From: Pseudomonadota bacterium
Lineage (GTDB): Bacteria; Desulfobacterota; Desulfovibrionia; Desulfovibrionales; Desulfovibrionaceae
DNA length: 64,000 nt
Direction: 5' to 3'
NCBI GenBank assembly: GCA_018816865.1
Contig: JAHIUW010000018.1
Span: forward strand, 1 to 64,000
Every line of letters starts with the position of its first letter. The first letter of the stretch is position 1. The notes under the pieces are model-generated. The model saw nothing but the letters and a program-made list of their open reading frames with translations, was not told where the DNA came from and did not search any database. A program made the translations under genes and the position numbers. Positions 1 through 5,470 of this stretch are shown in pieces.

Positions 1-140
1 CAATGGCCTGTTCCAGGCAGCGAGGGCCAGAGCCAGGGGATACCGGAACGTGGAGAATTTTATCACCATGGTCTACCTGATTGCGGCCCCGATTCAGGTC
101 GTGGTGGCTTCATGATTTCCACGTCAAACGACGAAGAACC
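1..140 (+). mobile_element. Right end of an ISL3-family insertion sequence (partial)
   Basis: The window opens inside an insertion sequence. The plus strand encodes the end of an ISL3-type transposase, stopping at 115. About 15 bases further on, an end reading ACGAAGAACC (131-140) gives GGTTCTTCGT when read inward, which fits the GGnTCTTC-type terminal repeats of ISL3 elements. I therefore put the right boundary at 140. The left end lies outside the window. If the boundary is right, bases 141-148 should be one copy of the 8-bp target duplication. The element interrupts the NTPase gene on the minus strand. Confidence 0.7.
2..115 (+). CDS. ISL3-family transposase, C-terminal fragment
   Basis: This is the last 37 codons of a transposase whose start lies before the window. 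The reading frame from base 2 ends at TGA 113-115. The residues include ARARARGYRNVENFI followed by a hydrophobic MVYLIAAPI. This matches the typical C-terminus of IS204/IS1096/ISL3 transposases, where an asparagine-glycine pair precedes an alanine/arginine-rich helix and a final NFI..IYLI segment. The family are DDE transposases that move by cut-and-paste with 8-bp duplications. The identification rests on this short motif and on the terminal repeat just downstream. Confidence 0.7.
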   Translation, partial: NGLFQAARARARGYRNVENFITMVYLIAAPIQVVVAS

Positions 141-1547
141 AGGAATATCAAAGGAACACCCCGAATTATTTCTATCCTCATTACACTTGGCAAACTGCTT
201 TACCAGCTGGCTACGAAACTCAAGAGGAAGCTGCGAAGGATCGCCATACTCCAAGAGCACATCAGGGGCCATGACAAACAAGCGCTGTCGAAAACGCTCA
301 TCCCATAAAGATAACCAGGCAGCGACAGCCTCCATTGATGGCCTGACAACTGAAACGCCATACTTATCAGCAAAGAATAGCCGTTCAATTGCCCGGCGAT
401 TCTTTCCTTGTGCAATCAGTTGGTAAAACCACTTTGCTCCAAGGTATTCCCTTACTGACCGATGATGAAAACGAACTCTACCGTATGTAGCCTCATCGAA
501 TATGGCTCTATTGAGCAAGGCATTGATCTGTGTAGCTGTCCAGTCAGATAGCACTTCAGCAGCTTCTATAGACTGAGAAAGACGGTCCGGCGCAATCGGA
601 TTATCAGGAATGATGACGCTACTTTTTCTACACATAGTCAATGCAGCTGCTAATCGAGTTGCACCCATAAGTGCCAGCTCACTACTCAGAGGTCTTCTTT
701 GATCTCTTTCCGAGTTCACTTCGCGGAGCTTTTTTTTGATACTAAACTCCATCATGACCGAGAACGAATCAATTTTACCGTACTCAAGCCAATAAGCAAT
801 TAGGTCCAGCAGGTCTTGAGGTCTAGCTGCGAATATCTCTGCATCAGCACGTTCGATGGCGTCCATGAATGATGAAACATCATTAATGCCTCTGCCAGAC
901 GCAAATATGCGCATCATTTCAGTTGATAAAGGGTCGAGCGTATAGAGAATAGGTGCTGTATCTATTGACACCTCATCTACACTGTCCTGTTCTGTCTTTT
1001 TAGATTGAGAAGTGGAAGGATGGTCAGGTCGAATGGAGAGTGGCAATATTTCTTCCACAGTTTGAAGATCGGCTGTCGCCTGCCAGTCGCTCACTCTCGA
1101 TGCAATAACAACATTAGCGTTTGATAATGAACCATTAAGATGGTGTGCAAGACGATTCAAAGCTCTTCTAAAAAAAGTTGGGTTAGACAATTTTGCCTCA
1201 TCAACAGAATCAAGAAAAAACCATGCGGGCTCCTCTGAGCTAGCCCATATCTCAAATTTAGTTAAATCTTCGGAGGATAAAATATAGCGAAGTTCATCTC
1301 CGGCCAAATCTTCGATTGGGAGGTAAAAAGCGTTTTTCCCCTTCTCCTGAAGCTCTTTTGTTTTAGCTTTGAGCTCCTTCGTTTTCCCTGTACCCGCCTC
1401 AGCAAGCAGGACAACCCGACTATGCGAAAGGACGTCGGCCCATGAGTCGGCCTTACCGCCCAGCATTGCCCGAATATGTATTTCTTCCTCAGAAATTTCT
1501 TTTTCATTAGAAATTTGATGGAAAGTCCTATTTAATTCTATGTACAT
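63..1547 (-). CDS. NACHT-type P-loop NTPase, truncated by IS insertion
   Basis: A 494-residue reading frame, starting at an ATG preceded by AGAGGTG. Residues 47-56 form a Walker A loop (LLAEAGTGKT). Residues 109-118 form a Walker B with the NACHT-style D-S-V-D-E signature (FFLDSVDEA), followed by a sensor-like SRVSDW. The rest is helical, without membrane segments. NACHT/STAND ATPases are usually large proteins with a C-terminal sensor region, and many bacterial ones are anti-phage defence genes. Here the native frame ends at base 141 (about residue 469). The last 25 residues are read from the terminus of the inserted IS, so the C-terminal sensor region is probably missing. Defence is inferred from family and island context. 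The truncated protein is probably non-functional. Confidence 0.7.
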   Translation of the reverse strand: MYIELNRTFHQISNEKEISEEEIHIRAMLGGKADSWADVLSHSRVVLLAEAGTGKTKELKAKTKELQEKGKNAFYLPIEDLAGDELRYILSSEDLTKFEIWASSEEPAWFFLDSVDEAKLSNPTFFRRALNRLAHHLNGSLSNANVVIASRVSDWQATADLQTVEEILPLSIRPDHPSTSQSKKTEQDSVDEVSIDTAPILYTLDPLSTEMMRIFASGRGINDVSSFMDAIERADAEIFAARPQDLLDLIAYWLEYGKIDSFSVMMEFSIKKKLREVNSERDQRRPLSSELALMGATRLAAALTMCRKSSVIIPDNPIAPDRLSQSIEAAEVLSDWTATQINALLNRAIFDEATYGRVRFHHRSVREYLGAKWFYQLIAQGKNRRAIERLFFADKYGVSVVRPSMEAVAAWLSLWDERFRQRLFVMAPDVLLEYGDPSQLPLEFRSQLVKQFAKCNEDRNNSGCSFDIPGSSSFDVEIMKPPRPESGPQSGRPW

Positions 1548-1716: not shown

Positions 1717-3021
1717 TTAGGCCGCTTTCAGCCTCCTATGGACAGTACTGGGAGACATATTCAACTCACTGGCAATGTCCCGCACGCTCATGCCTGACTC
1801 ACTCATGGCTTTAATCTTGTCTTGCTCAGCGGCCTTGAGTTCAACTGTTTCCCAGAATAGAGCTCCCTCGTCAGTGCTCCTTAGAACTGTGACTAGCGGC
1901 CTAACGGCCTCTCCGCACTCGCCTCGGGCCTTCTCAAAGTGAATCTCGAACCTAGCGCCCTGCTCAGGGTCAAAGTCCATTGGGCGTCTCAACGCGAGCA
2001 CAACGTCTAGGATATCCTCTTTGGCGCTTGTGCCCCGTTGCCCGCCCCCTTTGCCCGCATGGTGGACCAGCAGCACGGACTTCCCACGCCGCCTCAAGTC
2101 TAGAATCCAACGCTGAACAGGGAGCCAGCTTTCCGCGTCATTCTCGCGGCCCTTCCTGGCAAGAGTCGCAAGGTTATCCAGAATGATGAGGTCGGATTGT
2201 TCCACCAGTTCATCCAGGGCGGCTTGCCCTTCCTCGCTGGCAAGGTTTGGCATCGGACTGCTTTGCGCATCTGGCGTGACAAACCTAAGAGACCCTTCAG
2301 GAGGAATGTTATACCCCGCTCCCGACATAATACCCGCCAAGCGCTCTTTCATCGCCGCTAGGGGCATCTCTCCGTCTACATACAGGACACGGCGAGGCAT
2401 AGGAGCCTGGAACCCCCAGACACTGCCTCCAGTGGCGACGGCATGAGCTATGGACAAGCAGGCAAAGGTCTTGCCCATCCCCCTCGGGGCATAGAGCATT
2501 GAAAGCCCTTGGGCAGGTATCGCCGGATCCAGAAAATAGCCGCGCTTAGGGCAATCCATTTTTAGAATCTCTTCAGCGCTGAGACAGACGAGCTTACCCC
2601 CACCCCCCTCAACACCCTGTTTCTTGAACGCATGAATCGCATTTAGGGCCTTTCTCATCGCCTCACAGCTTGCGCTACCCTGGGCATGTAAAAAATCCTT
2701 CTCAAGGTGAGCCAGTTGGAGCCGCCGATAAATGACCTCCCCAGCGTGCCTGCTCGTCTTAAGAATGCCCTTCATGCACTCCGTTGCGGTCAAGCCAAGC
2801 GAAGTCTCTAGCCCTGCCATGTACTCTTGCGCACTGGCTCCATTCTGACTTGCCGGAAAAATACACTTCTCAACGATGGGGCGAAGGCGTTCGCTAATCA
2901 AATGAGGTTTAACAGCGAGGGAGCGCCAGTCTTGCTTTTCAGCAAGCAACCCCCATCCAATAAGGTCACGCGAGGCCGACTCTATGACGGCATTCAGCGC
3001 ATCATGATTAGGCAGCGGCAT
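1717..3021 (-). CDS. RecA-fold AAA ATPase (RepA-like helicase/primase-associated) with C-terminal HTH
   Basis: A protein of 434 residues. I chose the ATG at 3021 because GGGAG lies ten bases upstream; an in-frame start at 3078 would overlap the preceding gene far more. Walker A (APRGMGKT) is at about residues 178-185. A Walker B (LIILDNLATL) and a VLLVHHAGKGGGQRG segment follow, as in the RepA/AAA_25 hexameric ATPases used by plasmids and mobile islands for replication. The last 30 residues contain a resolvase-like helix-turn-helix (VRDIASELNMSPSTVHRRL), so the protein may also bind DNA. It overlaps the alpA-like gene by 14 bases, so the two are cotranscribed. A role in excised-island replication is inferred. 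Confidence 0.7.
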   Translation of the reverse strand: MPLPNHDALNAVIESASRDLIGWGLLAEKQDWRSLAVKPHLISERLRPIVEKCIFPASQNGASAQEYMAGLETSLGLTATECMKGILKTSRHAGEVIYRRLQLAHLEKDFLHAQGSASCEAMRKALNAIHAFKKQGVEGGGGKLVCLSAEEILKMDCPKRGYFLDPAIPAQGLSMLYAPRGMGKTFACLSIAHAVATGGSVWGFQAPMPRRVLYVDGEMPLAAMKERLAGIMSGAGYNIPPEGSLRFVTPDAQSSPMPNLASEEGQAALDELVEQSDLIILDNLATLARKGRENDAESWLPVQRWILDLRRRGKSVLLVHHAGKGGGQRGTSAKEDILDVVLALRRPMDFDPEQGARFEIHFEKARGECGEAVRPLVTVLRSTDEGALFWETVELKAAEQDKIKAMSESGMSVRDIASELNMSPSTVHRRLKAA

Positions 3022-3247
3022 TGCTGGACGCTCCCTGCTCAGTCTCATCCCCATCTTGAAGGTAAAGCCCCTCAGCAAGGGCGCGAATGTCTTTCACGCG
3101 CCAGGCCGAACATCTGGGGGCAATTTTGACGGGCTGAGGGAACTTGCCGTCTTTCACGCCAGCCCACCAAGTGGACTTGCTGACGGGGACAATTTTCAGG
3201 ACATCAGGCAGGCGAAGGAAACCGAAATCGAGATTAGCATTTACCAT
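3008..3247 (-). CDS. AlpA-family excisionase/transcriptional regulator
   Basis: A 79-residue protein with the AlpA pattern: FLRLPDVLKIVPVSKSTWWAGVKDGKFPQPVKI, then a W-R-x-x-D-I helix and a short acidic tail. AlpA/Xis-like winged-helix proteins control integrase expression or act as excision factors in P4-type islands. The start has GGAG nine bases upstream. It is the first gene of a two-gene leftward unit with the replication ATPase, and lies in the same island as the integrase at 4006-5217. Family assignment is good; which of the two roles it has is not visible. Confidence 0.8.
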   Translation of the reverse strand: MVNANLDFGFLRLPDVLKIVPVSKSTWWAGVKDGKFPQPVKIAPRCSAWRVKDIRALAEGLYLQDGDETEQGASSNAAA

Positions 3248-4005: not shown

Positions 4006-5217
4006 TCAACCCATTCTTTGCACCCCTATCGACACAACCGTAGCCCCGGCTTTCAACCCGTCCAGATAATCCGCCCATGCCTGCATCATCTCTCTCCGCT
4101 TGGGCAAATACTCAGCGAAATTGTATGTCGCCCGAACCTTGTCACGCGGCGAGTGCGCCAACTGCCTTTCAATCACATCTCTATTCCATCCCTGTTCATT
4201 GAGAACAGTCGAAGCCATTGACCGGAACCCGTGACAAGTCATTTCATCTTTGCTGTACCCAAGACGCCGCAGGGCGGCATTGACGGTGTTATCGCTCATG
4301 GGCCGGGTATCGGTTCGCACAGAGGGGAACACATAGCGCCCGTTCCCCGTCACTTCCCGAATGTCACGAAGCACTTCCAGAGCCTGCCGGGAAAGCGGCA
4401 CGATGTGGGGCTGGCGCATCTTCATCTTCTCAGCGGGAATGCGCCACTCAGCGGCGTCCAAGTCCAACTCTGCCCATTCTGCCTTGCGAAGCTCTCCGGG
4501 ACGCAGAAAGACCAGCGGAGCAAGCCGCAGGGCACAACGACCGATCATGGTTCCATCATAGGCGTCAATGGCGCGGAGCAACCCGCCGATCTTCTTGGGT
4601 TCGGTAATGGATGCATGGTGCTTCACCTTGGTAGCTGGCGGCAAAGCCCCCTGGATGTCTGCCGCAGGGTCCCTATCCGCCCTTTCAGTGACAATGGCAT
4701 ACCGGAAGACCTGAGAGAGGATTTGACGAACTCGCCGGGCGACTTCCACCGCCCCGCGCTTTTCAATGCGCTGAACGAGCCTAAGCATGTCTGTTGGCCC
4801 TAGCTCAGTGATGGGCCGATTCCCGATCTGAGGAAACACATCCTTGCTCAGACGACTTATGACCGTCTCGGCGTGGCCTCCGCTCCAATCCTGCGAAAAC
4901 TTCTCATACCATTCACGGGCAACCCCTTCGAATGTGTTCTCAAGCTGGGCCTTTTCCTGCTTACGGACTTCTCCGGGGTCAACTCCCGAAGCCAGAACCC
5001 GGCGCTTCTCCTCACACTTGTCTCGGGCCTCAGCGAGGGATACGTCCGGGTACAATCCGAGGGAGAGCATTTTTGCATTCCCTTCGAAGCGATACCGAAA
5101 GCGCCAACGCTTATTTCCGGTCGTTGGGACTTCAAGGCACAGCCCGCGCCCGTCGGAGAGGCGATAGAGCTTGTCTTTGGGCTTTGACGCATTGATGAGC
5201 TTCACGTTCAGCGACAT
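4006..5217 (-). CDS. P4-type tyrosine integrase
   Basis: A 403-residue site-specific recombinase. The N-terminus is the arm-binding DUF4102 domain (YRLSDGRGLCLEV; RFRYRFEGNAKMLSLGLYPD), followed by a SAM-like core-binding region and the catalytic domain. Visible catalytic residues are Arg in FLRPGELR (about residue 240), the H-x-x-R pair in CHGFRSMAST (about 327) and the nucleophile Tyr in ATYNFAEYL (about 365). The length is normal for the family and the gene looks intact. It reads away from tRNA-Ser(UGA), whose 3' end is about 165 bases upstream. This is the usual arrangement for islands that integrate into a tRNA 3' end. Confidence 0.92.
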   Translation of the reverse strand: MSLNVKLINASKPKDKLYRLSDGRGLCLEVPTTGNKRWRFRYRFEGNAKMLSLGLYPDVSLAEARDKCEEKRRVLASGVDPGEVRKQEKAQLENTFEGVAREWYEKFSQDWSGGHAETVISRLSKDVFPQIGNRPITELGPTDMLRLVQRIEKRGAVEVARRVRQILSQVFRYAIVTERADRDPAADIQGALPPATKVKHHASITEPKKIGGLLRAIDAYDGTMIGRCALRLAPLVFLRPGELRKAEWAELDLDAAEWRIPAEKMKMRQPHIVPLSRQALEVLRDIREVTGNGRYVFPSVRTDTRPMSDNTVNAALRRLGYSKDEMTCHGFRSMASTVLNEQGWNRDVIERQLAHSPRDKVRATYNFAEYLPKRREMMQAWADYLDGLKAGATVVSIGVQRMG

Positions 5218-5380: not shown

Positions 5381-5470
5381 TGGCGGAGGGGGAGGGATTC
5401 GAACCCCCGGATGGTTGCCCATCAACGGTTTTCAAGACCGTCGCGATAAACCGATCTCTGCCACCCCTCC
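5381..5470 (-). tRNA. tRNA-Ser(UGA)
   Basis: The minus strand reads GGAGGGG at the 5' end (5470 inward), an anticodon loop CTTGAAAA with anticodon TGA, a long variable arm typical of class II serine tRNAs, and a TTCGAATCC T-loop. The 3' acceptor CCCCTCC is followed by G and an encoded CCA (5383-5381). Its 3' end is the likely island attachment site. Confidence 0.95.

Follow-up and report, generated by a model that had tools for sequence, protein, structure and literature searches.

A HyoA-family NACHT gene cut after codon 469 at the end of an ISL3-family insertion sequence in a Desulfovibrionaceae draft genome

When an open reading frame with the motifs of an immune NTPase runs into an insertion sequence (IS), is it a defence gene that has been broken, or a short protein that naturally ends there? 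The question is raised by the left edge of a 64,000-nucleotide stretch of DNA (hereafter, the window), namely the first 64 kb of contig C33 (90,133 bases), whose first base is base 1 of the window. The contig belongs to a 3.64-Mb draft genome in 42 contigs (G000), and the same-family genomes retrieved by our searches are those of Desulfovibrionaceae. As described below, the most likely account is that a known defence gene recently lost its function in connection with an IS; namely, with a probability of roughly 0.85, an ISL3-family IS that is present in several copies and was active recently interrupted, after codon 469, a hyoA gene in an element at tRNA-Ser, with loss of the HyoA defence. The features concerned are summarized in Table 1.

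Table 1. Features at the left edge of the window, with the evidence for each
Feature	Position	Strand	Evidence
Right end of ISL3-family insertion sequence	1..140	+	138-140 bp shared without mismatch with the starts of C31 and C35; inner part cut by contig start
Transposase gene 3′ end, last 37 codons (NGLFQAARARARGYRNVENFITMVYLIAAPIQVVVAS)	2..115, stop 113-115	+	translation; match to ISL3 transposases of L155 and L156
25-codon tail (GSSSFDVEIMKPPRPESGPQSGRPW) and stop from IS DNA	63..140	-	translation; same tail on the KAP gene of C35
Candidate target-site duplication AGGAATAT, right copy only	141..148		left copy not assembled
hyoA 5′ fragment, 469 codons, NACHT NTPase module	141..1547	-	NCBIfam NF058534 1-465/1430, E 2.3e-167
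AAA_25 ATPase with C-terminal helix-turn-helix (RepA-like)	1717..3078	-	PF13481, E 2e-27
AlpA-type excision regulator	3008..3247	-	PF05930, E 1e-7
Tyrosine integrase	4006..5217	-	PF00589, PF22022, PF13356
tRNA-Ser(TGA), likely attachment site; 3′ end toward integrase	5381..5470	-	ARAGORN

The insertion sequence and its copies

Bases 1-140 recur free of mismatches (138-140 bp) at the starts of two other contigs, C31 and C35, and the flanks of the three contigs differ from base 141; the boundary of the IS is therefore set at 140/141. An inverted repeat starting with GGTTCTTCGTCGTTTG is read inward from base 140. The original prediction had placed a transposase C-terminus on the strand opposite to the truncated gene, and bases 2-112 indeed match complete ISL3 elements; in a tblastn search, this piece also hit a plasmid sequence annotated as "ISL3 family transposase." The terminus is shared by a complete relative, L156, an IS 1,339 bp long that encodes a DDE_Tnp_ISL3 transposase (PF01610, E 8e-57). 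Such a transposase is found in both of the complete relatives, L155 and L156, and the 37-codon piece in the window matches theirs; an 8-bp duplication is present at L155 as well. The element is thus likened to the ISL3 family (the IS204/IS1001/IS1096/IS1165 group) by its terminal repeat GGTTCTTCG, by the DDE_Tnp_ISL3 transposase of its complete relatives and by an 8-bp target duplication at a sister copy in C19/C31, but differs in that only two ends of the element in this genome are assembled.

An assembly chimera, in which the IS end was wrongly joined and hyoA is intact elsewhere, is considered highly improbable. The junction does lie in a repeat and 140 bp from the contig end; however, it falls exactly at the IS terminus, all three right ends consist of a repeat of ~140 bp followed by a unique flank, as expected for an assembly stopping in a repeat, and no intact hyoA was found in this genome.

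Three identical right ends of the IS are present at three sites (C33, C31, and C35), and the ISL3-family element is multicopy and recently active. The sister copy has its left end where C19 finishes and its right end where C31 begins; because both flanks carry the perfect 8-bp duplication CTTTTTCT (L004 1498-1505, L002 142-149), as expected of ISL3, this insertion is complete. The gene that it interrupts reads as a methyl-accepting chemotaxis protein. At the C35 copy (L255 1-1404), a gene for a KAP-family P-loop NTPase (PF07693, E 5e-36, with weak similarity to QatA) is cut after 422 codons and has likewise gained the 25-residue tail seen in the window; for this copy, too, the left flank is unassembled.

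Left ends of the IS were sought by pattern, with the 140-bp left end, with the complete relative IS and at nearly all contig ends, and were found at C19 only, leaving two of the three right ends (C33 and C35) without a left partner. Also, neither the left junction of the window copy with its own 8-bp duplication nor the IS interior was found in the readable assembly. The absence of the interior and of the left ends of two copies indicates that short contigs were lost from the assembly; furthermore, contig C29 (2,732 bases) consists of N alone and may contain some of what is missing. Two candidates for the left side were rejected: an occurrence of AGGAATAT in C10, 340 bases from the contig end, is taken as chance, that end being an IS3-like terminus, and a 12-mer match in C4 is internal with no IS sequence around it. 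Most contig breaks of G000 fall at repeat termini that resemble IS3-type elements and are drawn from a small shared set, and the genome is therefore regarded as rich in insertion sequences.

The truncated gene and the part it lacks

The open reading frame on the minus strand (63-1547) encodes 494 amino acids, namely 469 native residues and 25 residues derived from the IS, and its last native codon ends at base 141. Both a native part ending at base 141 at an ISL3 terminus and a read-through of 25 codons into the IS had been proposed from the nucleotide sequence, and they are borne out by the repeat boundary fixed with C31 and C35 and by the translation, respectively. The native fragment contains no internal stops and no frameshifts. 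Walker A (AEAGTGKT) and Walker B (FFLDSVDE, with the D-S-V-D-E noted at the outset) are intact, and the residues G54, K55, D113, D116, and E117 do not vary across 31 homologues.

The proposal of a NACHT-type NTPase of a defence family agrees with the match of the fragment to NF058534, "NACHT domain-containing antiphage protein HyoA" (E 2e-167). With nothing beyond positions 1-465 of 1430 remaining, it scores 559 bits, short of the curated 1200-bit cut-off; four of the five full-length relatives scanned against NF058534 were above the cut-off (L017, L020, L022, and L023). Judged from its sequence, the open reading frame in the window is a fragment of a HyoA gene and not a functional member of the family; the antiphage activity of HyoA itself is a putative assignment, taken from the name of the NCBIfam family. 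The native residues share with HyoA their alignment to the profile, Walker A/B and the NACHT-type fold, but the window gene keeps the first third only, without the middle region and the nuclease. EruA (NF058535), a related NACHT antiphage protein, was matched more weakly over residues 189-458, with 114 bits versus a cut-off of 1000, and the window gene is thus a fragment of HyoA, not EruA. PADLOC (2023), from which the HyoA family is absent, gave no match for either the fragment or the full-length relatives. Pfam gave only sub-threshold NACHT/STAND matches for them, and it was NCBIfam that resolved the family. Also, no related loci were hit when genomes and viral contigs were searched with a single protein; an alignment query retrieved them.

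The predicted fold of the fragment is an NLR-type NACHT module, with NLRC4 as the best match (E 4e-9) and with NOD2 and Avs4 also matching. The last confident helix of the model spans residues 442-457, and residues 460-469 are modeled with low confidence; according to this model, the cut sits in a disordered linker just past the folded NACHT module.

A natural end near residues 469-494 was found in none of the 77 complete homologues (i.e., those with a stop inside the contig), 67 of which are 1,327 residues or longer, with about 1,435 as the typical length; the lone nearby copy (461 residues; L067 in genome G225) is described below. The shorter homologues examined mostly had frameshifts, internal stops or contig ends, and in most of them the gene continues past the stop or frameshift or reaches the end of its contig. 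The end of the gene in the window is hence a truncation, in line with the original prediction.

Furthermore, a nuclease-like domain at the C-terminus is present in 58 full-length homologues and absent from the open reading frame in the window. In the last ~177 residues of intact relatives, a D...ExK motif is invariant (D66, E81, and K83 in the numbering of A2), as are E56 and K63. The confident model of this domain (pLDDT 90, pTM 0.87) has D66, E81, and K83 in the expected strand order, and PD-(D/E)xK nucleases make up most of its top structural matches (Can2, BamHI, OkrAI, PaqCI, BglII, McrBC, FokI, Shedu, and NucC). The structural Z values are moderate (best 8.6), and the argument for a nuclease therefore rests on the motif and the consistent class of matches; sequence searches of solved structures returned nothing meaningful. 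The C-terminal domain of intact relatives is likely to be a PD-(D/E)xK nuclease, as predicted from the model, and to serve as the effector. The earlier idea that the loss of a C-terminal sensor region probably explains the loss of function is too narrow, for the cut removed the ~800-residue middle region, assumed to be the sensor, together with the predicted nuclease. We infer that the gene is silenced.

Shortened hyoA genes were also observed in other genomes. Among seven genomes with a match in our sample of the order, hyoA is full-length in three, truncated in three, and cut by a contig end in one. In G225 (Pseudodesulfovibrio MAG6; L067; L021 1966-2080), hyoA stops at residue ~461, ~8 codons from the cut in the window, and is 88% identical to the intact gene of G131, a member of Desulfovibrionaceae; past this cut, the opposite strand reads as what we take to be the beginning of an OrfA of IS3 type. 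The single-contig genome G216 (L024 8739-9629) has a hyoA remnant of 264 residues, 92% identical to the intact G131 gene, and the rest is missing.

Might the NACHT-only HyoA with its IS tail be kept as a decoy, an inhibitor or a regulator? The position of the cut right after the folded module, the cut only ~8 codons upstream in a related genome and the freedom of the fragment from stops and frameshifts would be consistent with such a protein. An open fragment is, however, equally expected from a recent insertion, the IS copies being identical; two nearby cuts can be chance; and there is no conserved NACHT-only form among the 77 complete homologues. We thus consider a retained NACHT-only protein highly improbable, and we give very little credence to the stronger idea that cutting of HyoA in the linker is recurrent and selected, leaving a stable NACHT-only decoy or inhibitor instead of plain gene death. 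Even with a loss of HyoA defence, which we prefer, some residual or regulatory activity may remain because the NACHT module is intact.

The integrative element and the fate of the hyoA 3′ part

The fragment sits behind the genes for the integrase, AlpA and the AAA_25 ATPase beside tRNA-Ser(TGA), and hyoA is therefore regarded as cargo of a small integrative element. Indeed, a hallmark of tRNA islands is present, in that the tyrosine integrase adjoins the 3′ end of tRNA-Ser. An exact or intact attR copying this 3′ end was not found in the assembly; most matches to the tRNA end were other tRNA genes or tmRNA. A degenerate copy of the tRNA-Ser 3′ end (78%) is located at C28:1107-1161 (L201), and comparison with G105, a genome of the same genus, puts C28 on the far side of the tRNA-Ser site. 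C28 is thus likely the far neighbour of this site, while the gap stays unclosed. G105 itself has an att-like repeat at its tRNA-Ser site (L254 14919-14985). These degenerate tRNA-Ser(TGA) 3′ copies in C28 and G105 suggest repeated past integrations at the site in the genus.

No remainder of hyoA was hit in the readable genome by two homologue searches or by the family profile covering it. The C-terminal halves of homologues are roughly 20-40% identical over 760-950 residues, so that a remainder, if kept, should have been detected. In a simple insertion, a complete ISL3 element with the AGGAATAT duplication would lie between the 5′ fragment and a whole but unrecovered 3′ part. The sister copy is exactly such a clean insertion with an 8-bp duplication, the missing IS interior speaks for the loss of short contigs, and C29 is unreadable; nonetheless, a unique remainder of 2.9 kb should assemble and escaped all of these searches, and the two unpartnered right ends also count against this account, which we hold to be possible at somewhat less than even odds. 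Alternatively, an IS-mediated deletion or rearrangement may have removed the 3′ part, for example an adjacent deletion or inverted copies joining the ends of C33 and C35, and we give this about an even chance. It would be consistent with the absence of the remainder, with C33 and C35 both starting at right ends while no second or third left end is found, and with the lack of an intact attR; as a conjecture, these unpartnered right ends would fit a pair of inverted copies oriented toward one another, with a short spacer, now lost, between them. Such an event is not directly visible in any read pair, duplication or junction, however, and short contigs with left ends may simply have been discarded. 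Because the readable assembly lacks the remainder, a deletion next to the IS is no less possible than a simple insertion, and deletion is slightly favoured over plain insertion.

Probable loss of defence and its parallels

Relatives and domain architecture suggest that intact HyoA would act as a NACHT sensor-switch detecting phage via its middle region, upon which the C-terminal PD-(D/E)xK nuclease would cut nucleic acid. With hyoA broken by the ISL3 element after codon 469 and translation ending 25 codons inside the IS, the leftover NACHT module, which has neither the middle region nor the nuclease, would be unable to give HyoA defence.

Natural IS insertions also break cas genes, for which a trade-off between defence and DNA uptake has been proposed (PMC10359306). 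The present case is alike in that an IS breaks a prokaryotic immune gene, but that study concerns cas genes and IS1 and IS10 among others, with ISL3 unmentioned, whereas the target here is a single-gene NACHT system. HyoA is an already named family and IS-broken immune genes have been published; the case is a clear, well-supported example and not a new kind of system.

In conclusion, at this locus a transposable element has disrupted a NACHT immune system made of a single gene, a naturally occurring case in which the middle region and the predicted nuclease effector are lost; elsewhere in the genome, a further copy of this IS interrupts another NTPase gene, of the KAP type, which is frequently associated with defence. 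Should such disruptions prove common, immune systems that consist of one protein and are carried by mobile elements would turn over quickly, and annotation pipelines scoring the NACHT domain alone would count dead genes as defences.
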